A model generated the notes under the pieces. That model saw only the letters and a list, made by a program, of their open reading frames with translations. It was not told where the DNA came from and made no database searches. From Bacteroidota bacterium (lineage in GTDB: Bacteria > Bacteroidota > Bacteroidia > Bacteroidales > GCA-2748055), in assembly GCA_024244665.1 (NCBI GenBank), contig JAAEOI010000385.1:1-28528 (forward strand): DNA of 28,528 bases. Direction: 5' to 3'. Position numbers and translations under genes: made by a program. This document shows positions 801 to 17,000 of this stretch, one piece after another. How positions within the stretch are numbered: position 1 is the first letter of the stretch; every line of letters starts with the position of its first letter.

Positions 801-1910
801 TCACTGCCAGTGCCCCGGAATAGGCTCGCCACAGTCATAACAGGTGCCCTCACTGATTTTCATGCTGTTGATCCTGTAGCCTGAACGTTCAACCAGTGTT
901 GTTCCGCATCCGGGGCAGATTGTGTGGGCGTCATTACTGCCCGGTACATTGCCTATGTAGCAGAATTTCAAGCCCTCAGATAGTGCTATCTTTTTAGAAG
1001 CTTCAAGTGTCTTTACCGGTGTTGGAGGGAGTCTCTCAAGTTTGTGCTTAGGATGAAACCTGCTGAAATGGAGGGGGGTGCCTGAAAACTCATTTTCGGC
1101 CAGCCAGCCACACATTCTCCGGATCATATCCAGATCGTCGGTCCATGAAGGAACCACAAGGTTGGTGATCTCCAGCCAGACTCCCTCGTCTCTCAGGGTT
1201 TTTAAAGTATTCAGCACCGGCTCAAGTTTCCCAGCATTAAGTTTCAGATAGATGGAATCGTCCATAGATTTCAGGTCGATGTTGGCGGCATCGATTACGC
1301 TGCACATATTCAGAAGGGGCTCCTGGTGGATGTATCCTGCCGAAACCAGTACATTCCTGATCCCTGCCTCCCGGGCTATTTTGCCTGTCTCGAAGACATA
1401 TTCGTACCAGGTAATGGGTTCAGAGTAGGTATAGGCAATGCTATGGCAATTATATTTAAGAGCTTGTTTAACAACCTGATCAGGCATTAGATCGTAATTC
1501 TGTGTCTCCTCTGGGGAGGATTGGGAGATGGTCCAGTTCTGGCAATTGAGACAGGCCAGGTTACAGCCGGCAGTAGCAATGGAAAAAGCATCCGATTCAG
1601 GGTAGAAGTGGTAGAGTGGTTTCTTTTCTATGGGATCCACATGAATCGCACATGGATTCCCGTATGCAATTGTATGGAGTTTCCCGCTATATACCCTGCG
1701 GTTGTGGCACTCACTCAGTTCACCCTCCTTGAGGGTGCATTCATTGGGGCAGATCTGGCACCGTACCCCTTTGGGGGTTTCAACCTGGTACATCGCCTCA
1801 CGGCTCCATTTCCAGGGCTTATCAGGGCCTCGGGCTAAGATACTTCCCGGAGAAAGCAGTGTACAAGCTGATCCGCACAACCCGGTTTTCAGAAAGGTTC
1901 TTTTATCCAT
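801..1910 (-). CDS. amrS: AmmeMemoRadiSam system radical SAM enzyme with Tat-like leader
   Basis: A radical SAM protein of 369 residues counted from the ATG at 1908-1910. A GTG one codon upstream (1911-1913) is also possible, but the ATG gives the compact TGATG junction with the preceding stop codon. The 4Fe-4S cluster motif is C116-x3-C120-x2-C123 in AGCNLACLNCQNW. An N-terminal cysteine group (C51, C54, C58, C68) and a C-terminal zinc-ribbon pair (C332-x2-C335 and C357-x2-C360) match the AmrS family, which accompanies Memo and AMMECR1 proteins and whose substrate is unknown. The N-terminus MDKRTFLKTG followed by a hydrophobic stretch ending near ILA (about residue 26) resembles a Tat signal, with Lys-Arg in place of Arg-Arg. 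It is the last gene of the operon. Family is certain; export is inferred. Confidence 0.93.
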   Translation of the reverse strand: MDKRTFLKTGLCGSACTLLSPGSILARGPDKPWKWSREAMYQVETPKGVRCQICPNECTLKEGELSECHNRRVYSGKLHTIAYGNPCAIHVDPIEKKPLYHFYPESDAFSIATAGCNLACLNCQNWTISQSSPEETQNYDLMPDQVVKQALKYNCHSIAYTYSEPITWYEYVFETGKIAREAGIRNVLVSAGYIHQEPLLNMCSVIDAANIDLKSMDDSIYLKLNAGKLEPVLNTLKTLRDEGVWLEITNLVVPSWTDDLDMIRRMCGWLAENEFSGTPLHFSRFHPKHKLERLPPTPVKTLEASKKIALSEGLKFCYIGNVPGSNDAHTICPGCGTTLVERSGYRINSMKISEGTCYDCGEPIPGHWQ

Positions 1911-4417
1911 CACCGTAGTTTTAATACTCCCCGGACCAACAGGCTGAGGCCGGTGGCCAGGTTAATACAGAAGAACAATATAAAGGTATTGCTTACACCG
2001 ATCAAGGGAAGGAGGAAAAGCACAGGTATAAAAGTACCCAGGGCAGCACCGGTCAGATCCGCGCTGTAGAGCTCTCCGCGTATGCCTTGAGTAAGCTCCT
2101 TTTTAATTCCGGCCCCCATGGCATAGACCGATCCAACTACCATTCCAGGTACGAAATTGAGCAGGCCCAGGATTATTTGACCTGAGAGATGTGAGTCAAA
2201 AAGCCACCCGGTTCCGGGGAGGATGAACCCGCCAAGGGCCACCAGGGCCATGATCATAAGCAATCCGGTGAGTTTAGTCATTGAGGCTTTTTGCCGTGCC
2301 CGTTTCCCGGTGATGGTTCCGGCCACAATACCCGCCATAAAGAGGGTGATCATCATGGGTGCCACCATGTAGGCAAATCCGTAAAATGACTGGACCACCA
2401 TGATCAGTATGATCTGGATTCCGGCGCCCGTAAAACCGGTGATGTACATGGCTCGTTTTACAGGGGTGTAGCGAAATAAAAGGAAGAGGAAGAGCAGTGC
2501 GGAGAGGATCCCTGTAAACCTTGTGGAGTGACTGCCGTATTTTGATTCAATGCCAGTGAGTGTGGCAAAAAAGAGCCTGGGCCACAGGTCGCTGTTGATC
2601 TGCGGATTCTCTTGCTGAATACGCCCGAATAGCTGCTCACTGTCGAAGCGGATGTGATTTGCATCCAGGTAGTCGGGGTGTACATAGGTGGTCTGGATCT
2701 GCCGCCGGAGCACCATGGCAGGAAAGTCAAGAGAGAGTTCCCGGTCGGAGGCAAGGAAATAGGTGGAGGTTCCGGGAACAATCACCACATGGGCAAACAG
2801 CTGTTCCATTGTGTTGTAGTTAATGGCCAGTAAGCCGATTCCTTCCTCATTAACATAGTTATCTGAGGTGCTTAGTTGCATGCAGAAGATCCCGCCGGGC
2901 GCAAGGTGCTCTTTTACCATGCTGTAGAACTCAAGTGTGAAGTAGCGGTTCCATCCTATGGTTATTGGGTTGGAGGCTGAGGAGACCACAATATCGTATT
3001 GCACATCCTCTGCCTGCATCAGCCATCTCCGGCCATCCTGCGGAATGAATCTGAGTTCCTCCGGCTGACTTCCTGTAAAATGGGTTTTTCCCATCCGGTA
3101 GATCCATGGATTGGCTTCGCAGTAATCGATCCGTGCGGGATTATATTTTGATGCTTCGGCAATATGACCGGATAAGCCTCCCCCCAGCAGCAGGAAAGAC
3201 TCAGGGCCCGGGTGCTGCAGCGCAGGGAAATGGACCGACTCCTCGGCCCCGGTCAGATCGGATGAGCTGATCACTGGGTTGCCGTCCATAAATGCGGTTA
3301 CCTGATCATCCCTCAGTGAGAAGGTAAGGTTCCCGTATGGCGTATCCCTGGTCTCAAGAACCTTCTCATCCCTGTACCTCAGCTCCTCCAGGCTGTTTTG
3401 AAACTGAGTAGGCAGGGAGAGGATAAATAATACAATGGAGCTCAGCAAAAGAATAATCCTCCATGCGGGCCGGGCAGGGTATCTGAAGAGTAGTACAACA
3501 GCCAGGGAGGTAGTCATGAACAGGAAGGTCAGGAGCTGAATATTATTCAGCAGGTGCACCAGTATCACTCCGAAAAGGATGCCCCCTGCCACCGATCCGA
3601 TGGCATCTAGCCGGTATGGGGATGCTCCTGTTTTATGATGCTCCACCCTGCCTGAAACATATCCAAACAGAAAGCCTGAAACCCCAGTAAACAGTGCTGA
3701 TAGGATGAGCATGCAGATTGTTGTATCCAGCAGTCCAGCTTGCACTCCCGGAAGAAACAAGAACCTGCCGGTCAGGATCAGTGCCAGGTAAACCAGCAGT
3801 GGGAGCAGGCCCAGCAGAACCAGGAGAAGGCAGAGCCGTTGTTGTGGAATTTTGACCCTGTACATGGCACCCAGACTGGCTCCCCGGGCAGTAAGGATCA
3901 TCCATGCAGCCAGGAAAATACCGATCACCAGTTCATTCCCATGAAAGCTTTTGATAAACTCCCGGAGCAGGACTAGTTGAGCCAATATGCTGATGTATCC
4001 AAGCAACAAAAAGAATGAGCTTTCCTGGAGTCGGCTGAATGGGAGGCTCAGGGGAGACCGGGGGGTGGAGGGAGAGATTCCGGCTGCGGGTCCAGGGGAT
4101 GATGGCTTTCGCTGGCTATAATAACGAAGGTGCCACAGCAGGTGGAAGAGGGCCACAAGGGCGAACCCGATGCCGCTGTCCACATGCCATTGCATCACAT
4201 CTTCGATCCAGGAAACATTCAGTTTATAGTTGACTTTGACAACCAGAAGAAGGCCCAGCAAGGCTGTGGATAAAAAGAAGAGCAACAACAGGGTATTCCA
4301 GAATTTCCGGTGGCTCTGCAGGGTGAGCAGGTGCTTGCGAACAAACAGCAGGCTTATGAAATAAGAGACCAGGAGGAGCGCCCCAATGGAGAGCAGATGA
4401 TAGGGGCCGGGGGTCAT
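1910..4417 (-). CDS. Polytopic membrane protein with central spermidine-synthase-like domain
   Basis: An 835-residue protein built as membrane block, soluble domain, membrane block. About nine hydrophobic segments lie between residues 7 and 335, a Rossmann methyltransferase/spermidine-synthase-like domain at about 345-600, and about five or six more segments at about 635-830. The nucleotide-binding glycine loop is LLLGGGLSG (409-417), the acidic strand end is YCEAN (432-436), and PQDGRRWL is at 459-466. Where aminopropyltransferases carry a catalytic aspartate (the DxPD-type loop), this protein reads VVSSASNP (477-484). Polyamine synthesis is therefore doubtful, although a family-like EFYSM segment follows at 496-500. 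The start overlaps the end of the Memo-AMMECR1 gene by four bases (ATGA), and its stop overlaps the start of the radical SAM gene. It probably provides the membrane part of the system; its substrate is unknown. Confidence 0.85.
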   Translation of the reverse strand: MTPGPYHLLSIGALLLVSYFISLLFVRKHLLTLQSHRKFWNTLLLLFFLSTALLGLLLVVKVNYKLNVSWIEDVMQWHVDSGIGFALVALFHLLWHLRYYSQRKPSSPGPAAGISPSTPRSPLSLPFSRLQESSFFLLLGYISILAQLVLLREFIKSFHGNELVIGIFLAAWMILTARGASLGAMYRVKIPQQRLCLLLVLLGLLPLLVYLALILTGRFLFLPGVQAGLLDTTICMLILSALFTGVSGFLFGYVSGRVEHHKTGASPYRLDAIGSVAGGILFGVILVHLLNNIQLLTFLFMTTSLAVVLLFRYPARPAWRIILLLSSIVLFILSLPTQFQNSLEELRYRDEKVLETRDTPYGNLTFSLRDDQVTAFMDGNPVISSSDLTGAEESVHFPALQHPGPESFLLLGGGLSGHIAEASKYNPARIDYCEANPWIYRMGKTHFTGSQPEELRFIPQDGRRWLMQAEDVQYDIVVSSASNPITIGWNRYFTLEFYSMVKEHLAPGGIFCMQLSTSDNYVNEEGIGLLAINYNTMEQLFAHVVIVPGTSTYFLASDRELSLDFPAMVLRRQIQTTYVHPDYLDANHIRFDSEQLFGRIQQENPQINSDLWPRLFFATLTGIESKYGSHSTRFTGILSALLFLFLLFRYTPVKRAMYITGFTGAGIQIILIMVVQSFYGFAYMVAPMMITLFMAGIVAGTITGKRARQKASMTKLTGLLMIMALVALGGFILPGTGWLFDSHLSGQIILGLLNFVPGMVVGSVYAMGAGIKKELTQGIRGELYSADLTGAALGTFIPVLFLLPLIGVSNTFILFFCINLATGLSLLVRGVLKLR

Positions 4418-5940
4418 TTCTCCCTTTTATTATCAAAAATGATTGCCTCATAAATATAAAGGTCGGCCTCTTTCCAGCCATCCCAGCCGATACCCGCCTT
4501 ATCCCTTGCGCAGTGACCCAGGAAATCCTCGGTGGTCCAGCCGGTATCGTCGGCCACCTGCGGCAGGAATGTTCCGGAATTGCTGCCTTTCTTCATGTAA
4601 ATACCGTGCCGCCCCAACTCAAACTCATCAACGGAGCTGATCTTCCTTAAGGGAGTCAGAACCGATATTTCAATTTCAATATACTTTAGCTCAGGCTCTT
4701 CCACAGGGGCAAACCTGCCATCCCGGGTGGCTGCAGCTATGGTCATTCCCTCAACCACGGCATAGAGAGGATCTGTCGGAGAGAAATTTCCGACGCAACC
4801 CCTGAGCCTTCCTCCCATGTACAGGCTTACAAATGCACCGGCAGGCACCTTCAGTGAAGGTGAAAGAGTACCGGGATCGAGTGCGGCCAATTTCCCGGTT
4901 TTGATATATGATTCAAGTGTGGAACGGGAAAGAGCCAGGAGCTGCTTCTTCTCCGCCTCGTTTAAACCGTAGGGACGCTCTTCTGCCGGTTTTTCTGAAC
5001 CTGCAATGGCCCAGTACCCCACCACACGCTCCTTATCGCCGATCTTTGAATCGCCCGAGTTGCGGTATAGCACCCTTGAGAGTTCCAGGTTGGGCATCCG
5101 GTTGGCCATATAGAGCATGGTCATGATGGAGCTCCATCCACAGCTGGGCGTGGAGAGGTTGGTGATCGAGCGGTTGTTGTTGTTTTTGAGTGCGTTGTAA
5201 AACTTTTCAGGGTCTTTGGTCAGAATCGCCTCACCGGTGATTTGATCAATGCGTTTGGCGTCCTGGTAGGTGGGGTAGTGGGAGAAGTCGGAGCTGATAA
5301 TGAAGAGGTTCCCGGGCGTGAACCATGGCACAAGTGCTGCCGCAAGATCCCTTGCACCCGACAGTGAGGAGGTGCCCATGACAAGCGGTACAATGGGAGG
5401 AAGCTCATTGAAGTGGTACTGCAGGAAGGGAATCTGTACCTCGATACTGTGTTCACGGTCGTGCGCTTTTGCATTGTACACAATGTTTTTATTCCCCTCG
5501 ATGAGGGCCTGTGCAATTTCCCGGTTGACCCTGGCTTCACCCAGAGGAGTGATGTAGTTCCCGGCCGAATAGACAGAAACGCCGCTAAACTGTTCCCGGT
5601 GTGACGAAGCAATAATAAAGATGTTGTCGTAACGGGCATCCTTTGGAATGGTTTTATACCCGGAAGCAGCCACGATCCCGGAGTATTCGTATCCGGCATG
5701 TGGAACAATGAGTGTCTGCACTTCTCCCTGGATCCAGCCCGCTTTTGCTGCTGAAAAGAGTTTTTTGAGCTGGGATTCAAGGGCAGAACGCTGAGCTGGG
5801 TAAAATGTACCTGCAAATGCAGGTTGCCTGTTGACCGGGGCAGGGAGGTCCTGTGCAGAACGATCCTGGCATGTTCCATTGTTGGAAAATAACAGCAGGA
5901 ATGCCATCAATGATAACAGGATTAACAGTTGTTTTCTCAT
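4414..5940 (-). CDS. Exported Memo-AMMECR1 fusion (AmmeMemoRadiSam proteins B and A)
   Basis: A 508-residue fusion of the two protein partners of the AmmeMemoRadiSam system (AmrB and AmrA in family naming). Residues 1-24 form a signal peptide with a long Leu/Phe core. The Memo domain (about 38-315) starts with RQPAFAGTFYP and keeps the residues equivalent to the metal-site set of human Memo: H81 in PHAGY, H114 in SSHR, H221 in SSDFSHY and C267 in PSCGW. The DREHSIEVQ motif is at 161-169. The AMMECR1 domain (about 325-505) carries the hallmark LRGCVG at 379-384 and TRDGRFAPV at 405-413. Its stop overlaps the next start (ATGA) and only 15 bp separate it from the DUF4268 gene upstream. Domain identities are firm. 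Biochemical function is unknown for the family; location outside the cytoplasm is inferred from the leader. Confidence 0.94.
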   Translation of the reverse strand: MRKQLLILLSLMAFLLLFSNNGTCQDRSAQDLPAPVNRQPAFAGTFYPAQRSALESQLKKLFSAAKAGWIQGEVQTLIVPHAGYEYSGIVAASGYKTIPKDARYDNIFIIASSHREQFSGVSVYSAGNYITPLGEARVNREIAQALIEGNKNIVYNAKAHDREHSIEVQIPFLQYHFNELPPIVPLVMGTSSLSGARDLAAALVPWFTPGNLFIISSDFSHYPTYQDAKRIDQITGEAILTKDPEKFYNALKNNNNRSITNLSTPSCGWSSIMTMLYMANRMPNLELSRVLYRNSGDSKIGDKERVVGYWAIAGSEKPAEERPYGLNEAEKKQLLALSRSTLESYIKTGKLAALDPGTLSPSLKVPAGAFVSLYMGGRLRGCVGNFSPTDPLYAVVEGMTIAAATRDGRFAPVEEPELKYIEIEISVLTPLRKISSVDEFELGRHGIYMKKGSNSGTFLPQVADDTGWTTEDFLGHCARDKAGIGWDGWKEADLYIYEAIIFDNKREK

Positions 5941-5955
5941 CGCATCTTTGGCTTA

Positions 5956-6414
5956 TCATCCATATTTGAAGAAATCCCGGTATTCACGGTAAAATGCTTC
6001 CAGTTTCATCATGTTATCATACATGAACTGGTGAGCTGAATGCCAGGTGTCGCTGTTGTATATATCAACTCCCTCTTTCTGAAGGTAGATACGGCTCACC
6101 GATTTCCCGTTTTCCCGGGTGTACTCCAGTTCCCAGATCATGGGTGACTTCATAGCATCTTCCATTACTTTTTGAACCGATTCCAGTTTTTCGTAAAGCT
6201 CGATTCGTTTGTCCATATTCCTGGTCTCCAGGTCAATCCCCACCTGGGCCACCTCCCTGTCCACATGGAAACGAAGGTTGAGTGCCTTTACCCCGGTTTG
6301 AGTCAGGAGCCAGTCACCCGGCAACCTTTTCGCCGTTCTCCTGCGGGTGGAGATGGCTTTGAACTGACCCCAGAACTCTTCTCTCAGTTGTTTTGCTTCT
6401 TCTTTTGAATACAT
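5956..6414 (-). CDS. DUF4268-like protein
   Basis: A 152-residue soluble protein with no signal peptide or membrane segment. The opening, MYSKEEAKQLREEFWGQF, and the later pattern of aromatic and charged residues (HVDREVAQVGIDLETR at about 50-65, WELEYTRENG, and a C-terminal YREYRDFFKYG) fit the short stand-alone DUF4268 proteins found in Bacteroidota, recognised here from memory rather than by a search. No catalytic motif is apparent. It is the first gene of the operon, 15 bp before the Memo-AMMECR1 gene and divergent from the GMC oxidoreductase gene with 47 bp between starts. Position suggests co-expression with the AmmeMemoRadiSam genes, but as a cytoplasmic protein it may simply share the promoter. 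Confidence 0.75.
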   Translation of the reverse strand: MYSKEEAKQLREEFWGQFKAISTRRRTAKRLPGDWLLTQTGVKALNLRFHVDREVAQVGIDLETRNMDKRIELYEKLESVQKVMEDAMKSPMIWELEYTRENGKSVSRIYLQKEGVDIYNSDTWHSAHQFMYDNMMKLEAFYREYRDFFKYG

Positions 6415-6461: not shown

Positions 6462-8024
6462 ATGCACTTTGACTATGACTACATCATTGTAGGATCGGGC
6501 TTCGGAGGATCGGTTTCGGCCCTTAGACTCACAGAAAAGGGATATAAAGTACTGGTAATTGAAAAGGGGAAAAGGTGGGAACATTCCCAGTTTCCGGAAA
6601 CCAACTGGAATCTGCGAAGATGGCTCTGGCTGCCCATATTTCTTTTCCGGGGGATATTCAAGATGACCATCATGCGCCATGTGGGCATCCTCAGCGGAGT
6701 GGGTGTGGGGGGCGGATCACTGATGTACGCCAATACCCTCCCCAGGCCGCGGGAGACCTTCTTTCATTCGGGAAGCTGGGCCGGACTGGCTGATTGGAAG
6801 GGAGAGCTGACCCCGCACTATGAGGAGGCTGAAAAAATGCTGGGAGCGATCGAGAATCCCGGACTCTATGATTCTGACGAAACCCTGCGTGCGGTGGCGT
6901 CAGAATTTGGCAAATCAGAGGAGTTCGAACCCACAAGGGTTGCTGTCTTCTTTGGCGAACCGGAGCAGGAGGTACCCGATCCCTACTTCGGCGGAGAGGG
7001 TCCAAGGCGCTCGGGTTGCAATCACTGTGGGTCGTGTATGACTGGCTGCAGGTATAATGCCAAGAATACCCTGGATAAGAACTACCTCTACCTGGCAGAA
7101 AAGGGAGGGGCGGAGGTGCTGCCTGAAAAAAAAGTCTATCGCATAGAACCGGTCGGGAGCAGCAATGGAGATGAGGGGTACCGCTTATGGCTTAAAGACT
7201 CCACCGGGATTCTAAAGAGAAAGAAACGCCTGACATCCAGAGGAGTGGTTCTTTCCGGCGGGGTGTTGGGGACGGTAAGACTGTTGCTTAATTTAAAAAA
7301 TCGTTACCTGCCCGGATTGAGTGATCAGGTAGGAGCCGGAATCAGGACCAACAACGAGAGCCTGGCACTTGTCCATTCACGGAACAAAGAGAAGGATTTC
7401 TCCAGGGGAGTGGCCATCGGTTCCATTTTCCCTCCTGATGAAGATACCCACCTGGAACCTGTCCGCTACGGAAGCGGCTCCGGATTCTGGAAACTGCTGG
7501 GTGTTCCCCTGACCCATGGGAAGAGTATGGCGGGCCGTATCCTTAAACTTATTTGGAGCTTCATCAGCCGGCCCCTTCCCTGGTTTCGGGTCTGGTTCAG
7601 CAAGGATTTTGCGAAAGAGTCCATGATCCTGCTCTTCATGCAGCACCTGGACAGCACGCTGAGGCTGAAAAGGGGAGTGTTGAACCTGAGGAGTGTACTC
7701 TCCTCAGGACCAGCCCCGTCGGCCTTTATGCCCCTGGCTAAAAAGCTTGCTGACTCCACGGCCCGGGAGGTAGACGGAGCTCCGTTCGTGATGGTCTCCG
7801 AGGCCATACTGGGTACACCCCTCACGGCCCACATCCTGGGCGGATCTGTGATCGGGAAGGATGCAGAAAGCGGTGTCATAGATAAGAATCACAGGGTATT
7901 TGGATACAGGAACCTGTATGTGTGTGACGGTAGTGCCATTTCAGCTAATCCCGGTGTGAATCCGGCGCTCACAATCACCGCCATGACAGAAAGAGTAATG
8001 TCCAAAATCTCTTTAAAAGAATAG
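6462..8024 (+). CDS. GMC-family (cholesterol-oxidase-like) FAD oxidoreductase
   Basis: A 520-residue flavoprotein. The FAD dinucleotide-binding fold is at the N-terminus (YIIVGSGFGGS at about 7-17, then VIEKGKRW), followed by the GMC signature region GVGGGSLMYAN (81-91). The C-terminal substrate/FAD segment contains HILGGSVIG, a DGSAI motif and NPGVNPALTITAMTER. These are hallmarks of the cholesterol-oxidase branch of glucose-methanol-choline oxidoreductases, which oxidise alcohol groups on varied substrates; the substrate cannot be told here. A cluster C186-x2-C189-x2-C192-x3-C196 lies in the middle of the protein and is spaced like an iron-sulfur ligand set. No signal peptide is present. 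The DUF1360-type gene follows 36 bp downstream and may be co-transcribed. Confidence 0.88.
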   Translation: MHFDYDYIIVGSGFGGSVSALRLTEKGYKVLVIEKGKRWEHSQFPETNWNLRRWLWLPIFLFRGIFKMTIMRHVGILSGVGVGGGSLMYANTLPRPRETFFHSGSWAGLADWKGELTPHYEEAEKMLGAIENPGLYDSDETLRAVASEFGKSEEFEPTRVAVFFGEPEQEVPDPYFGGEGPRRSGCNHCGSCMTGCRYNAKNTLDKNYLYLAEKGGAEVLPEKKVYRIEPVGSSNGDEGYRLWLKDSTGILKRKKRLTSRGVVLSGGVLGTVRLLLNLKNRYLPGLSDQVGAGIRTNNESLALVHSRNKEKDFSRGVAIGSIFPPDEDTHLEPVRYGSGSGFWKLLGVPLTHGKSMAGRILKLIWSFISRPLPWFRVWFSKDFAKESMILLFMQHLDSTLRLKRGVLNLRSVLSSGPAPSAFMPLAKKLADSTAREVDGAPFVMVSEAILGTPLTAHILGGSVIGKDAESGVIDKNHRVFGYRNLYVCDGSAISANPGVNPALTITAMTERVMSKISLKE

Positions 8025-11634: not shown

Positions 11635-14055
11635 ATGTTATTGAATTATCTAATTATTGCCTTTCGCAACGCCTTGCGAAACAGGGTCTATTCGCTGATT
11701 AATCTCCTGGGGCTTGCCATTGGTATTGCGAGTTCGGTTATTATCCTTCTGTTCGTACTGGATGAGTTGAGCTATGACAGGCACAATGAGCACTTCGGGG
11801 ATATTTACCGGATCTGTATCCGGGGAAAAATCCAGGGAAATGAGATTGCAGCAGCCCTTTCCAACGCACCCATGGGAGCGACCCTTAAATCCGATTATCC
11901 GGAAGTGGAAGAGTCTGCCAGGCTCTATACATTCGACGGAGATCCGGTAGTGAGGTATGGTGATAAGGTGTTCATCGAGGAGGATTTCTACTATGCCGAT
12001 TCCACATTTTTCAATGTTTTTACAGCTCCGGTTGTCTTCGGTGATCCCAAAGGGCTGCTGAATCGTCCCAATACCATGGTACTCACAGAAGAGATTGCCA
12101 GGAAGTATTTTGGAGATGAGGATCCTGTGGGGAAACTGCTTACTGTTGGTGAGCGGGAGACCGAGTATGAGATCAGCGGGGTGGTGAAGGCTTTTCCTGA
12201 GAACTCCCATTTCCGGTTCAACATGCTGGGTTCCATGACATCCATTTATATAGCCGATGTAACACGCTGGCTGGGAAATAACAATTTCACCTACATCAGG
12301 CTACGGGAAAAGGCAGATCCTGAAGAGGTTGAATCACAATTCCCAAGTCTGGTTGCCCAGCATATGGGTACAGAACTTGAGGAGATACTGGGTCTGACCA
12401 TTGAGGAGTTTTTTGCCGCCGGGAATACCTACGGTTACTATCTGCAGCCTTTGAAAGAGATTCATCTTGAGTCTGATTTGCAGTTCGAGATCAATCCTGG
12501 CGGGAGTAAATCCTCGGTCATTATCTTTTCGGTTATCGCCATCTTCCTGATCATTATTGCATCGATCAATTTTATGAACCTGGCCACGGCCCGCGGGGCA
12601 AAAAGAGCCACAGAGGTTGGAATCAGAAAGGTTGCAGGGGCAGATAAGCAACGACTTATAAGTCAATTTCTCGCAGAGTCTTTCCTGGTTACAATTGTGG
12701 CCCTGATTCTGGCCATCGTACTGGTGGAACTTTTCCTCCCGGGATTCAATAAGCTCTCCGGGAAAAGTTTAGAGCTTGATTCCATCAGACCGTGGCACCT
12801 TTGTACCGGACTGCTGCTGATCGGGCTGTTTGTGGGTTTCGCCTCGGGAAGCTACCCGGCCTTTTTTCTCTCTTCCTTTAAGCCGGTGGATGTATTGAAG
12901 AGCGGAGCCATGCGGGGGATCAGGGGAGCCGGACTCAGAAAGGTGCTGGTAACACTTCAGTTTGTTATCACTATTGTACTGTTTATCTGCACCTTAATCG
13001 TGAACGGGCAGATGAAATATATACAGGTGAAAGACCTGGGATTTGAAAAGGAGAACCTGGTGATCATTGACCGGACCTATGTACTGGATAACCAGACAGA
13101 GGCCTTCAGACAGGAGCTGTTGAAGAATCCCTCCATTCTGCAGGCCACTTACTCCAGTGCTGTTCCCGGTGGATTGATCGGCGATAATGCCTACCTCCCT
13201 GAGGGGGCCGGATCGGATGAAACACATGCCATCAATAACATGTGGACCGACTGGCATTTCAAAGAGACCTATAGACTTGAGCTTATTGAAGGAAGGTGGT
13301 TCCAGGAGGGTAATCCCACCGATTCAACTGCACTGATCCTGAATGAATCGGCTGTAAAGGCACTCAGTTTTGAGGATCCCCTTAGTAAGCGGCTATATAC
13401 GCAGTTTGGTGATGATGTGGAAAGCCCCAACCAGATCATCGGGGTGATTAAAGATTTTCATTTTCAATCGCTTCACCAGGAGGTGCGTCCCCTGGTCCTC
13501 CAGTTCATCGATAACAACCAGTTCCAGCTTTCGGTCCGTATCAGTGGCCGTGAAACTGCTAAAACACTGGAATATATCCAGAAGACCTGGACCTCATTCA
13601 AGGAGCAGCAGCCCATCCACATGACCTTTCTGGAGGAGGACCTTGCCGAACTTTATAATAATGATGAGAAGGCTGCAACAGTATTTTCCATATTCTCGGT
13701 TTTGGCCATCTTTATTGCTGCTCTTGGGTTACTCGGACTCGCATCATTCAGTGCAGCCCAACGTACCAAAGAGGTTGGGATCCGCAAAGCCATGGGTGCT
13801 TCAATTCCCGGTGTATTGTTCACCCTCTCGCAAGAGTTCATATGGCTGATCCTCATTGCTACTCTGGCAGCATGGCCACTGGGTTATTTCATTATGAAGG
13901 GCTGGTTGCAGGATTTCCCTGTTCGAGTTCCTATTGAGCCCCAGGTATTTATCATCAGTTCCCTGCTTGCATTTTTCATTGCTGCAGCAACAGTGCTCCT
14001 GCGAGTTTACCAGGCCGCCTCCATGAACCCAGTATCTTCACTCCGGTACGAATAG
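11635..14055 (+). CDS. FtsX/MacB-type ABC transporter permease (copy 1)
   Basis: An 806-residue membrane protein with duplicated architecture. TM1 is at about 19-42 (VYSLINLLGLAIGIASSV), followed by a periplasmic MacB-PCD-like domain to about 290, TM helices at about 292-312, 352-372 and 388-410, TM5 at about 437-460, a second periplasmic domain to about 680, and three final helices. FtsX-domain signatures are present twice: TEVGIRKVAGA (about 325-335) and KEVGIRKAMGA (about 713-723). It ends NPVSSLRYE. In Bacteroidota such permeases pair with a MacB-like ATPase for export of lipids, peptides or drugs by a mechanotransmission mechanism; no ATPase gene is in this window. The broken copy begins 10 bp downstream. 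Confidence 0.92.
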   Translation: MLLNYLIIAFRNALRNRVYSLINLLGLAIGIASSVIILLFVLDELSYDRHNEHFGDIYRICIRGKIQGNEIAAALSNAPMGATLKSDYPEVEESARLYTFDGDPVVRYGDKVFIEEDFYYADSTFFNVFTAPVVFGDPKGLLNRPNTMVLTEEIARKYFGDEDPVGKLLTVGERETEYEISGVVKAFPENSHFRFNMLGSMTSIYIADVTRWLGNNNFTYIRLREKADPEEVESQFPSLVAQHMGTELEEILGLTIEEFFAAGNTYGYYLQPLKEIHLESDLQFEINPGGSKSSVIIFSVIAIFLIIIASINFMNLATARGAKRATEVGIRKVAGADKQRLISQFLAESFLVTIVALILAIVLVELFLPGFNKLSGKSLELDSIRPWHLCTGLLLIGLFVGFASGSYPAFFLSSFKPVDVLKSGAMRGIRGAGLRKVLVTLQFVITIVLFICTLIVNGQMKYIQVKDLGFEKENLVIIDRTYVLDNQTEAFRQELLKNPSILQATYSSAVPGGLIGDNAYLPEGAGSDETHAINNMWTDWHFKETYRLELIEGRWFQEGNPTDSTALILNESAVKALSFEDPLSKRLYTQFGDDVESPNQIIGVIKDFHFQSLHQEVRPLVLQFIDNNQFQLSVRISGRETAKTLEYIQKTWTSFKEQQPIHMTFLEEDLAELYNNDEKAATVFSIFSVLAIFIAALGLLGLASFSAAQRTKEVGIRKAMGASIPGVLFTLSQEFIWLILIATLAAWPLGYFIMKGWLQDFPVRVPIEPQVFIISSLLAFFIAAATVLLRVYQAASMNPVSSLRYE

Positions 14056-14065
14056 AAATCCATAC

Positions 14066-14403
14066 ATGTTCAGAAACTACATTTTTGTTACCTTCCGCAA
14101 CCTCTATAAAAACAGGGTTTTTGCCCTGATCAACATCTTTGGACCTGGCATTGCCATATCCATTTGTATTGTGGCCTACTTCAACCAGATGTTCGTGTAC
14201 GATTTTGACCGATTTCTTGAGAACTTCGATGAAATATCTCGGACGGACTTAAAAGTTATATCTCTGTGCAGAATGAGGTCAACGAGAGCTTTGTTATTTC
14301 AGGATTTAACATCGTACCCATGGAGGAGGTGAAGCTGTTCTTACAGGAGGTATACTATTCCATGGCTGTGAGGACTAATAGTGAAAATCTGCTTGAGGTA
14401 TGA
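14066..14403 (+). pseudogene. Broken FtsX/MacB-type permease gene
   Basis: The ATG at 14066, 10 bp after the first permease, opens a normal permease N-terminus: MFRNYIFVTFRNLYKNRVFA, a TM1 altered to GPGIAIS where intact copies have GLAIGIA, then YDFDRFLENFDEI. Similarity stops near codon 60, and the frame ends at 14332 after a Ser/Arg-rich stretch. In the -1 frame, 14233-14403 is open and reads coding-like, DGLKSYISVQNEVNES through SFVISGFNIVPMEEV to NLLEV and stop. I do not recognise that part as permease; it may be the tail of another gene joined by deletion. No second periplasmic or membrane domain exists, so a functional transporter is excluded. Confidence 0.8.
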
Positions 14404-14561
14404 ATGAGTGAGTGCAGCGAGGGGTACCACAACTCCTTCGGCAGAATAAATTCTGCTTATATTGTTAATTGGTGTTTTATAAGTGCAGTATCGTTTTCAT
14501 AATGTAACTTGTATCAATTCATGTTGGTCACACGTCTAACGAGCATACTAAAATAGAAGAT
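14404..14561. other. Intergenic region with a short palindrome
   Basis: This 158-bp gap separates the broken permease from the second intact copy. It is AT-rich toward its right end and contains a perfect 7-bp inverted repeat, GCAGAAT-aa-ATTCTGC, at 14441-14456. There is no run of T after the palindrome, so it is not a typical terminator. No coding signal was seen. A promoter for the second permease is expected here but no convincing TTG / TAnnTTTG pair was found. Confidence 0.5.
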
Positions 14562-17000
14562 ATGATTCGGAATTACATTGTAGTCGCGTTAAGAAACCTC
14601 TGGAGGCACCGGGGGTATAGTCTGATAAATGTTCTGGGCCTGGCTATCGGTCTCGCCAGCAGTATTTTGATCCTGCTCTATGTGATCAATGAACTCACCT
14701 ACGACCGCTTTCATGATAAATCTGACCAGATCTACCGGGTCTGGATATCGGGCAGCATGCCGGCTACAGAGATGCGCCATGCAGTAACATCTCCCCCCAT
14801 GGCCGAAACCATGCTGAATGATTACCCGGAAGTGGAGCAGACTGTGAGGCTGAGACTGTCAGGAGGATGGCTGGTGAGGACCGGGGACCGGATCTTTCAT
14901 GAAACACAGGAGGACTTCATTTTTGCCGATTCCACTTTTTTCGATGTGTTCAGTTTTGAATTGCTGAGGGGTGATCCCAAATCCTGTTTGCGTGATCCCA
15001 GGAGCATTGTACTGTCGGAGGAGTATGCGAAAAAGTATTTTGGTGACGAGGACCCCATCGGCCAGACTCTGAAGATTGAGCAGGACACCAACCTTTCTGT
15101 CATCACCGGTGTAATGGAGGACTTCCCGGTCAACTCTCATTTTCATTGTAACATGATCGGATCACTGAATACACTTGACAGGAGCCTGAACACCAACTGG
15201 GTGAATCACAATTTCCACACATACGTGGTTTTGAAAGAGGGCACCGATCCGGTTGAATTCGAGGCCCGCATGCATGAAATGGTGATTAAGTACGTGGGGC
15301 CGATTGTGGTGCAGTTTTTGGGAATTGATCTGGACAAGTTTGAGGCGGCCGGCCATTCCTATGGGTACAGGCTCCAGAAGCTGACCGATATACACCTGCA
15401 TTCGGATCTTCAGTATGAGCTGGAGCCCAATGGGAATCCAATGTACGTTTATATTTTCCTGGTGGCGGCGATCCTGATTCTGGTTATTGCGGGAGTGAAT
15501 TTCATGAACCTGGCCACTGCCCGCTCCACCGTCAGGGCACGCGAAGTGGGACTCCGGAAGGTGGTGGGGTCCAGGCGATCGCAGCTAATCTCCCAGTTCC
15601 TCACCGAATCGGTTTTGCTCAGCCTGGTTTCCATGTTGGTGGCCCTTGTACTGGTTTCCCTTTTGCTCCCCAAATATAACAACCTGATCCAGTTAAGTCT
15701 TGTCTTCGATATTTTCAGCAAGAGCTGGATCATTCCCCTTTTGATTCTTTTTGCCCTTTTTGTGGGTATTGCGTCAGGTAGCTACCCTGCATTTGTACTG
15801 GCCTCCTTTAAACCTGCGGCGATATTCAGTTCAGAGAAAAAGGCTGCATCCAGAAAGAGTTTTTTGAGAAGTATGCTTATCGTATTTCAGTTCACAGTGA
15901 CCATTGTGATCCTACTGGGCACTATTGTTGTGAACCGGCAGCTTCACTTCATGCAGAAAAAGGAACCCGGTTTTGGGAAGGAGAACCTGTTGCTGGTAAA
16001 ACGGTCCGATGTGCTTAAGCAAACAATTGATGCTTTCAAAGAGGAGATTGTTCAGCACAACAACGTGATTGCTGCTGCCAATACAACCCATGTCCCGTCT
16101 AACCAGTTTTCAGATAATGTGCATTGGCTGGAGGGAAGAGACCGGGGTGAGATATCCACACTGGCCTCATGCTTTGTGAGTTATGATTTTGGGAAGGCCA
16201 TGGGCCTGGAGTTGGTGAGCGGGAGGTTTTTCGATCCCAACATGCCATCCGATTCCTCGGCCGTTGTGATAAATGAAGCGACTGCAAGGGCACTTGGGAT
16301 TGAAGATCCCCTGAGCACCAGGTTTGTCCAACCCGGAGAGAACGGTGAGGAGGACTTTTTCATGCCCATCATTGGCGTGGTACGGGATTTTCACTATGAA
16401 TCGATGCAGAGTGAGATTAATCCTGTGGTGCTCCATTTTATGAGGGGTAACTACGAAGGTGTTTTAACCATTAAGCTGGGTGATGGAAACAAGGCTGAGA
16501 CCATTAGCTTCCTTGAACAGAAATGGAGCGAATTCAACTCCGAATATCCTTTTGAGTATTTCTGGATGGACGAACAGTTTGATAAGCTGTTTGATACAGA
16601 GCGCCGGACCAGTCAGATCCTGGGAATATTTTCATTTCTCAGTATCTTCATCACCTGCCTGGGCCTGCTGGGCCTGATCTCCTATACCACTACCCAGCGA
16701 ACCCGTGAGATAGGTATCCGGAAGATCATGGGTGCATCAGTCAAAATCGTAATGCGCTTGCTCTCCAGGGAGATGATAAACCTGCTCAGCATTAGTGCTC
16801 TGATATCAATTCCAGCCTTTTTTGGAGTCAGGGCTTGGCTACAGCGTTTTGCCTATCATATTAATTTCCAGGTAGGTATCTATTTTTTGGTCCTTGGAGC
16901 TGTAGTGATCACGATTCTCATCCTGGCCATGGCTACCGTAAGTTTTCACTCATACCGGGCTGCCACTGCGAACCCGGCCGATAGCCTGAGAGTCGACTAA
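14562..17000 (+). CDS. FtsX/MacB-type ABC transporter permease (copy 2)
   Basis: An 812-residue paralogue of copy 1 with the same layout: TM1 at about 20-42 (INVLGLAIGLASSI), a periplasmic domain, a central group of TM helices, a second periplasmic domain and three final helices. FtsX-type signatures are REVGLRKVVGS (about 327-337) and REIGIRKIMGA (about 717-727). A YFGDEDP motif in the first periplasmic domain is shared exactly with copy 1, and the C-terminus reads NPADSLRVD. Similarity between the copies is clear by eye along the whole length (for example NFMNLATAR, GIASGSYPAF and ADSTFF), so they arose by duplication or belong to one expanded family. It probably works with an ATPase encoded elsewhere. 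Substrate unknown. Confidence 0.92.
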   Translation: MIRNYIVVALRNLWRHRGYSLINVLGLAIGLASSILILLYVINELTYDRFHDKSDQIYRVWISGSMPATEMRHAVTSPPMAETMLNDYPEVEQTVRLRLSGGWLVRTGDRIFHETQEDFIFADSTFFDVFSFELLRGDPKSCLRDPRSIVLSEEYAKKYFGDEDPIGQTLKIEQDTNLSVITGVMEDFPVNSHFHCNMIGSLNTLDRSLNTNWVNHNFHTYVVLKEGTDPVEFEARMHEMVIKYVGPIVVQFLGIDLDKFEAAGHSYGYRLQKLTDIHLHSDLQYELEPNGNPMYVYIFLVAAILILVIAGVNFMNLATARSTVRAREVGLRKVVGSRRSQLISQFLTESVLLSLVSMLVALVLVSLLLPKYNNLIQLSLVFDIFSKSWIIPLLILFALFVGIASGSYPAFVLASFKPAAIFSSEKKAASRKSFLRSMLIVFQFTVTIVILLGTIVVNRQLHFMQKKEPGFGKENLLLVKRSDVLKQTIDAFKEEIVQHNNVIAAANTTHVPSNQFSDNVHWLEGRDRGEISTLASCFVSYDFGKAMGLELVSGRFFDPNMPSDSSAVVINEATARALGIEDPLSTRFVQPGENGEEDFFMPIIGVVRDFHYESMQSEINPVVLHFMRGNYEGVLTIKLGDGNKAETISFLEQKWSEFNSEYPFEYFWMDEQFDKLFDTERRTSQILGIFSFLSIFITCLGLLGLISYTTTQRTREIGIRKIMGASVKIVMRLLSREMINLLSISALISIPAFFGVRAWLQRFAYHINFQVGIYFLVLGAVVITILILAMATVSFHSYRAATANPADSLRVD

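Follow-up and report, generated by a model that had tools for sequence, protein, structure and literature searches.

Does the gene run at positions 801-6414 of this window (the whole stretch of 28,528 nucleotides that was analysed) encode a form of the AmmeMemoRadiSam system that works in the cell envelope? An earlier note on this DNA had proposed as much, on the strength of leaders on a Memo-AMMECR1 fusion and on a radical SAM enzyme, with a membrane protein, here called MEM, encoded between them. The genes are listed below in the order in which they are read, together with the msrB gene that follows; the range also covers a DUF4268 gene that was absent from the earlier description.

6414-5956, minus strand: DUF4268 protein, 152 aa, no leader seen (PF14088, 105 bits)
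5940-4414, minus strand: Memo-AMMECR1 fusion, 508 aa, N-terminal Sec-type signal peptide MRKQLLILLSLMAFLLLFSNNGTCQ
4417-4414, minus strand: ATGA overlap of the fusion stop and the MEM start, read in the sequence
4417-1910, minus strand: membrane protein MEM, 835 aa; 3-helix N-terminal module, MFS-like helices, SpdSyn-like domain, MFS-like helices
1912-1908, minus strand: TGATG overlap of the MEM stop and the radical SAM start, read in the sequence
1910-801 (frame start GTG 1913), minus strand: radical SAM enzyme (TIGR04337), 369 aa from ATG 1910, Tat-like leader MDKRTFLKTGLCGSACTLLSPGSILA
714-271, minus strand: MsrB (methionine-R-sulfoxide reductase), signal-like N-terminus (NF004036, 197.5 bits, cut-off 179)

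The Memo, AMMECR1 and radical SAM genes are clustered, and each scores above its curated NCBIfam cut-off (TIGR04336, 239.8 bits against 26; TIGR04335, 149.1 against 99; TIGR04337, 349 against 220), with Pfam placing Memo at aa 40-311 and AMMECR1 at aa 336-502 of the fusion. The earlier note had recognised these three marker families and the fusion, had put the membrane-protein gene between the fusion and the radical SAM gene, and had described the ATGA and TGATG junctions; profiles, coordinates and sequence bear out all of this. The junctions make ATG 1910 a likelier start for the radical SAM enzyme than GTG 1913.

Conservation of the gene order beyond this genome had been named as a test on which the proposal could fail, and the order proved to be conserved. 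When the MEM alignment was scanned against contigs representing one genome per species, at least 553 stretches were found to code for a relative. The 80 that scored best were retained; being the closest matches to the family of the window, they are not a random draw. Among these best 80 of at least 553 loci, AMMECR1 lies within 6 kb of MEM in 64, radical SAM in 63 and Memo in 57, and 57 loci have both AMMECR1 and radical SAM, of which 42 are collinear, 14 have AMMECR1 divergent upstream and 1 is arranged otherwise. Ten of the 80 have no partner within 6 kb, four of them (L036, L039, L071 and L079) with at least 5 kb on both sides. The linked loci of this set come from Bacteroidota, Chlorobiota, Ignavibacteriota, Verrucomicrobiota, Planctomycetota, Nitrospirota and delta-type lineages, nearly all as contigs of metagenome-assembled genomes, some of whose bins are probably contaminated (L022 and L046 are labelled archaea). 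The largest other neighbour cluster in the 80 loci, encoding a long protein that has a membrane segment close to the N-terminus (sample L003, 18542-21034), occurs in 15, and the remaining ones of the 30 largest clusters reach 6 loci at most, much of this being shared synteny of near relatives. Four searched genomes have only AMMECR1 beside MEM (G029, G035, G040 and G043); in three of them a Memo with a hydrophobic N-terminus is encoded elsewhere (L165, L172 and L169), and the sole Memo match of G029 (L167) has none.

The flanking genes are confined to the nearest relatives. Among the best 80 of at least 553 MEM loci, DUF4268 is found only in L001-L005, where it lies upstream and opens the gene run in that lineage alone, and MsrB lies beside MEM only in L002-L005, that is, in four of the five closest loci, L001 stopping just past the radical SAM gene. 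Because of this restriction, neither was counted as a core part. A separate 625-aa single chain (P0022) joins Memo, AMMECR1 and MsrB (SelR), paralleling the msrB gene after the operon here. In PADLOC, the DUF4268 protein of the window resembles PDC-S11 candidate defence proteins over their C-terminal part (best E 5e-15), and the MEM SpdSyn domain matches mad2 (E 2e-8); both were taken as shared domains and a defence role was rejected, and PADLOC gave no match for the Memo-AMMECR1 or the radical SAM protein. Elsewhere in the window, a divergent GMC oxidoreductase gene (6462-8024), kept in L003-L005 and with no leader seen, is nearest the cholesterol oxidase model NF058674 (586 bits, below the cut-off of 850), and two adjacent large permease-like proteins (806 and 812 aa), alike at their starts, are encoded at 11635-17000.

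MEM matches the fused MFS/spermidine synthase family NF037959 (MFS_SpdSyn) with 66 bits against a cut-off of 40. Its AlphaFold2 model (mean pLDDT 87.7, pTM 0.88) contains 17 membrane helices (3+7+7, with two counted for the helix at 779-834), resembling a 14-helix MFS-like protein with three added N-terminal helices, and the predicted model matches the MFS fold over most helices. The spermidine-synthase-like (SpdSyn) domain, at about aa 340-628, falls between blocks of 10 and 7 helices, and charge bias places it outside in the predicted topology. The earlier note's count of 14-15 helices gives way to 17 in the model. The N-terminal 3-helix module (aa 1-101) is present in 27 of the best 80 of at least 553 loci, as counted from match starts; W77, H78, V79, G82 and H92 are invariant in it, H78 and H92 in 60/60, and its resemblance to cytochrome b561 (PF01292) is sub-threshold (E 0.078, 13.2 bits against 30.1). 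In profile alignment with 1uir, the catalytic Asp and the GGGD/E acid, which we take to be functional residues of aminopropyltransferases, map to positions 480 and 415. Position 480 is D in 2/60 and position 415 is hydrophobic in 58/60 (L45, I7, F3, V2, W1) and T in one, and E392, E393, H396, Q401, E421, N490 and R491 are invariant in 60/60. As judged from these alignments, the domain has lost the aminopropyltransferase acids and kept the putative adenosine-binding residues, and for want of these acids the reading of MEM as a polyamine synthase was rejected.

The leaders were examined in 107 distinct radical SAM proteins, comprising those of the MEM loci (from the best 80 of at least 553) and other TIGR04337 copies in 45 of those genomes. 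By a criterion fixed after the sequences were viewed, a twin-basic leader is present in 62/62 proteins with MEM within 6 kb and in 6/45 others (Fisher 3e-23, a value that ignores shared ancestry). The same pattern occurs in 62/1069 unrelated ORFs of the fetched loci, so the leaders on the MEM-linked proteins are not chance. Of the six leader-positive proteins without a nearby MEM, L147 proved a false positive on visual inspection and clusters with leaderless rows, and the other five (L087, L095, L096, L111 and L154) lie in MEM-containing genomes. A copy with a twin-basic leader is found in 39 of the 45 MEM genomes and is absent in G006, G020, G037, G038, G041 and G045, the last being a whole-chromosome record with a truncated radical SAM gene beside an exported-type Memo-AMMECR1 (L171). 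A leaderless copy coexists in 33/45, with the cut copy of G008 excluded and L147 counted as leaderless. In two Omnitrophota genomes (G038 and G041), TIGR04337 proteins (L086 and L155, the former beside Memo and AMMECR1) have a strongly hydrophobic N-terminus that is not twin-basic.

The Tat-like leader described earlier for the radical SAM enzyme is present, but its twin-basic pair reads KR, not RR, and so departs from the Tat consensus (S/T)RRxFLK. In the part of the source available, KR is described as a functional variant: TtrB naturally has K in place of the first R, and in SufI this exchange slows export (PMC1182353). Across the 68 leader-positive proteins (L147, false by eye, among them) the pair is KR in 49, RR in 15 and RK in 4. 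KR prevails in nearly all Bacteroidota, RR occurs in Verrucomicrobiota, Planctomycetota and some of the delta-type genomes, and RK in others of these; among the remaining strict Tat-like leaders in the fetched loci, 16 read RR and 1 reads KR. TatC was found in 40/45 relatives' genomes, and the five without it include those of L027 and L028, which carry radical SAM proteins with KR leaders. The best 12-residue mean Kyte-Doolittle value is 1.47 for the radical SAM leader and 3.07 for the fusion signal peptide.

The signal peptide ascribed to the fusion was confirmed by its sequence features, a charged n-region followed by a hydrophobic core of the Sec type, and it starts at the first start codon of the frame. 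An N-terminal hydrophobic run is present in 64/69 MEM-linked Memo/AMMECR1 ORFs and in 2/12 controls. The five ORFs without it are L019 and L011, both truncated at the edge of the locus, L002, divided between two frames, and L068 and L073, which are AMMECR1-only and have no clear run; the two positive controls are L086 (Omnitrophota, whose radical SAM protein also has a hydrophobic leader) and L088, from the same locus as L076. Separately, mutually similar proteins with RR Tat-like leaders lie near ordinary spermidine-synthase-like genes in Bacteroidota (L221-L224 and L227), a possible parallel pairing of such genes with exported enzymes.

Two further draws of genomes were not chosen for MEM. 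Among 247 evenly drawn Bacteroidota genomes, with G005 (locus L005) itself picked for MEM, TIGR04337 exceeds its cut-off in 58, and MEM is present in 5 at E 1e-40 or better, all of them also at E < 1e-100. All five (four besides G005) have a leader-bearing radical SAM protein, truncated at the contig end in G142, and beside MEM a Memo-AMMECR1 of the exported type. The leader occurs in 0/60 other radical SAM copies, three of which (L198, L243 and L255) are without an N-terminus; one of these, L255, may be the remainder of the exported copy of G142 itself. Another 24 genomes gave weaker MEM-profile matches (2.8e-34 or weaker), which were taken for other spermidine synthases; one weak match (G164 C309) holds the helix part only, near the contig start.

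The system is not confined to Bacteroidota. In the second draw, 148 Thermodesulfobacteriota genomes (the phylum of G029) scored for MEM at E 1e-40 and TIGR04337 at E 1e-50, MEM is present in 57, and at least two TIGR04337 matches are found in 51/57 MEM genomes versus 9/91 others (Fisher 2e-23, again ignoring shared ancestry). At most 30 loci of about 2-5 kb were fetched per search, so that neighbours were often out of reach, and 16/30 fetched MEM loci of this length show no neighbours. Within 41 distinct proteins, the leader is present in 12/12 MEM-adjacent radical SAM proteins, including two RK leaders (L272 and L273) missed by the pattern and accepted by eye, versus 14/29 others; 13 of these 14 are from MEM genomes, and 15/29 have no leader. 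G332 has a leader-bearing radical SAM protein and no MEM at E 1e-40. Four loci of this phylum (L310, L313, L321 and L323) show RR-leader radical SAM proteins beside AMMECR1 or Memo, several of the leaders ending in AQ, with no MEM inside the short locus, in genomes that encode MEM.

A quick tree was built from 164 radical SAM domains; one branch (SH-aLRT 97) unites 64/65 MEM-linked rows, four leader-bearing rows without MEM, and L236, a plain, long-branch row; a wider branch of 72 rows (SH-aLRT 86) adds L265, L096 and L086, the last from Omnitrophota and bearing a leader of another, hydrophobic kind. In the genomes nearest to the window, the leaderless copies (L142-L144) fall in a separate leaderless group, and the exported form is therefore a paralogue and not a relocated copy. 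C87 (in GNPC) is present in 64/65 MEM-linked radical SAM proteins versus 12/102 others and can serve as a sequence marker of the putatively exported group. To judge from their residues, the enzymes of the exported set look intact. In MEM-linked radical SAM proteins the cluster motif CxxxCxxC (C116/C120/C123) and C51/C54/C58/C68 are each kept in 65/65 and C332/C335/C357/C360 in 64/64, and R380 and C382 of the AMMECR1 RGC motif are kept in 68/68 MEM-linked proteins. Human MEMO1 binds iron or copper through two His and one Cys, the iron ligands being H49, H81 and C244 (PMC11081632, in the part of the article available). Their equivalents in MEM-linked Memo domains are kept in 60/60, 61/61 and 54/54; in the fusion, H81 and H114 correspond by alignment to human H49 and H81, and C267 was matched to C244 by motif, as in the count, because the alignment ends before it.

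We consider it probable, if by no great measure, that these genes encode an envelope-located, paralogous AmmeMemoRadiSam system that has MEM as a fourth part and is present in several phyla. Sec would export Memo-AMMECR1, and Tat would export the radical SAM enzyme in folded form, carrying its iron-sulfur cluster; both would act at the outer surface of the inner membrane, together with MEM as a dedicated component. MEM would be an MFS-fold protein bearing an SpdSyn-derived domain on the outer side; this domain may bind an adenosyl compound (SAM or a SAM-derived product) with no aminopropyl transfer, and MEM may carry that compound through the membrane, which would allow radical SAM chemistry to run outside. 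The metal-binding Memo-AMMECR1 chain would be the partner of the radical SAM enzyme, and the 3-helix module with its two invariant His, in part of the Bacteroidota and their relatives, may bring electrons. This account builds on sequence, namely the intact families, key residues, conserved linkage, leaders and charge pattern; from these we infer real export, SAM handling, electron supply and any substrate. Because of the leader-pair and TatC evidence, we grade export of Memo-AMMECR1 as very likely and that of the radical SAM enzyme as likely, with tethering at the inner face as the main rival. The interpretation put forward earlier is partly supported, its extracytoplasmic location by the cross-phylum leaders tied to the MEM gene, the leaderless paralogues in the same genomes, TatC in 40/45 genomes and the charge pattern that puts the SpdSyn domain outside. 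The more specific picture, an extracytoplasmic radical SAM enzyme fed by MEM, with the outer SpdSyn-like domain as the site of SAM or its product and Memo-AMMECR1 as the exported metal-binding partner, is put forward tentatively, as possible rather than probable. To our knowledge, SAM is not known in the periplasm, and we know of no earlier case of extracytoplasmic radical SAM chemistry.

In the main rival, the leader hooks the radical SAM enzyme to the membrane or anchors it weakly; the enzyme would stay on the cytoplasmic side and modify MEM or Memo-AMMECR1 before these are exported or while they are. Radical SAM enzymes require SAM and low-potential electrons, and SAM and reductant are available on the cytoplasmic side; such tethering would also suit the KR pairs of the Bacteroidota, set against the RR of nearly all other strict Tat-like leaders of the fetched loci, and the five genomes in which TatC was not found. 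On the other hand, the same protein carries RR in Verrucomicrobiota, Planctomycetota and some of the delta-type genomes, its partners and the SpdSyn domain are predicted to lie outside, and the core of the window's leader is moderately hydrophobic, as is usual for Tat leaders (PMC1182353, in the part available). We regard tethering as unlikely, though a rival to be taken seriously.

MEM could also be a true membrane-bound polyamine aminopropyltransferase, or a polyamine exporter, that merely shares the operon. Given the rarity of the catalytic Asp and the hydrophobic residue at the GGGD/E acid position beside seven other invariant residues, and a linkage to AMMECR1 and radical SAM that spans phyla, this seems to us improbable. 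Least credible of all is the idea that the leaders are wrong-start artefacts or ordinary variation on the usual cytoplasmic system. The start codons are indeed predicted, and the radical SAM frame offers both GTG 1913 and ATG 1910, but the leader pattern is present in every one of the MEM-linked proteins and absent from leaderless copies in the same genomes, and the signal peptide of the fusion begins at the first start codon available to it.

The exported form with MEM is a variant of AmmeMemoRadiSam (TIGR04335, TIGR04336, TIGR04337; amrA, amrB, amrS), itself already known. The two are alike in families above cut-off and in the cluster cysteines, Memo ligands and RGC motif; the form described here differs in the secretory leaders on Memo-AMMECR1 and the radical SAM enzyme, the added MFS-SpdSyn partner and the clade-typical C87, and it coexists with the leaderless form in 33/45 genomes. 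MEM exceeds the NF037959 cut-off and shares its MFS-like helices and SpdSyn domain, but its SpdSyn domain lies between 10- and 7-helix blocks, is predicted to be outside and is without the aminopropyltransferase acids, and in 27/80 loci (the best 80 of at least 553) the 3-helix module is added. Pyruvate formate-lyase activating enzyme, which is cytoplasmic and without a leader, shares the radical SAM core; its structures 3c8f and 8fo0 are the only solved-structure sequences that match the window's radical SAM enzyme at E 0.001, over residues 114-269 only (best E 3.8e-10). Human MEMO1 is a stand-alone, intracellular protein. Its Memo domain resembles the present one in having two His and one Cys as iron or copper ligands (PMC11081632, in the part available), whereas Memo here forms one chain with AMMECR1 and bears a signal peptide. 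In a literature search that covered few subscription journals and in which most matches were judged by their listing, we found no description of an exported AmmeMemoRadiSam form with MEM and no publication joining MEMO1, AMMECR1 and radical SAM; in the parts seen of the publications examined, 'AmmeMemoRadiSam' appears as a gene name only.

AMMECR1 is a human disease-linked protein, and we know of no primary molecular function established for it. The same holds for Memo, whose primary molecular function is described as unknown (PMC11081632, in the part available). The AmmeMemoRadiSam gene set, which humans share, ordinarily acts within the cell; bacteria of several phyla have a second form of it, apparently outside the inner membrane and with a transporter-like partner. 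The envelope is a surprising place for oxygen-sensitive radical SAM chemistry; if such chemistry does take place outside the cytoplasm, it calls for an unexpected supply of SAM and of a strong reductant on that side. With its dedicated membrane partner and its separable genes, the conserved exported form points to the envelope, to metal and to adenosyl compounds.
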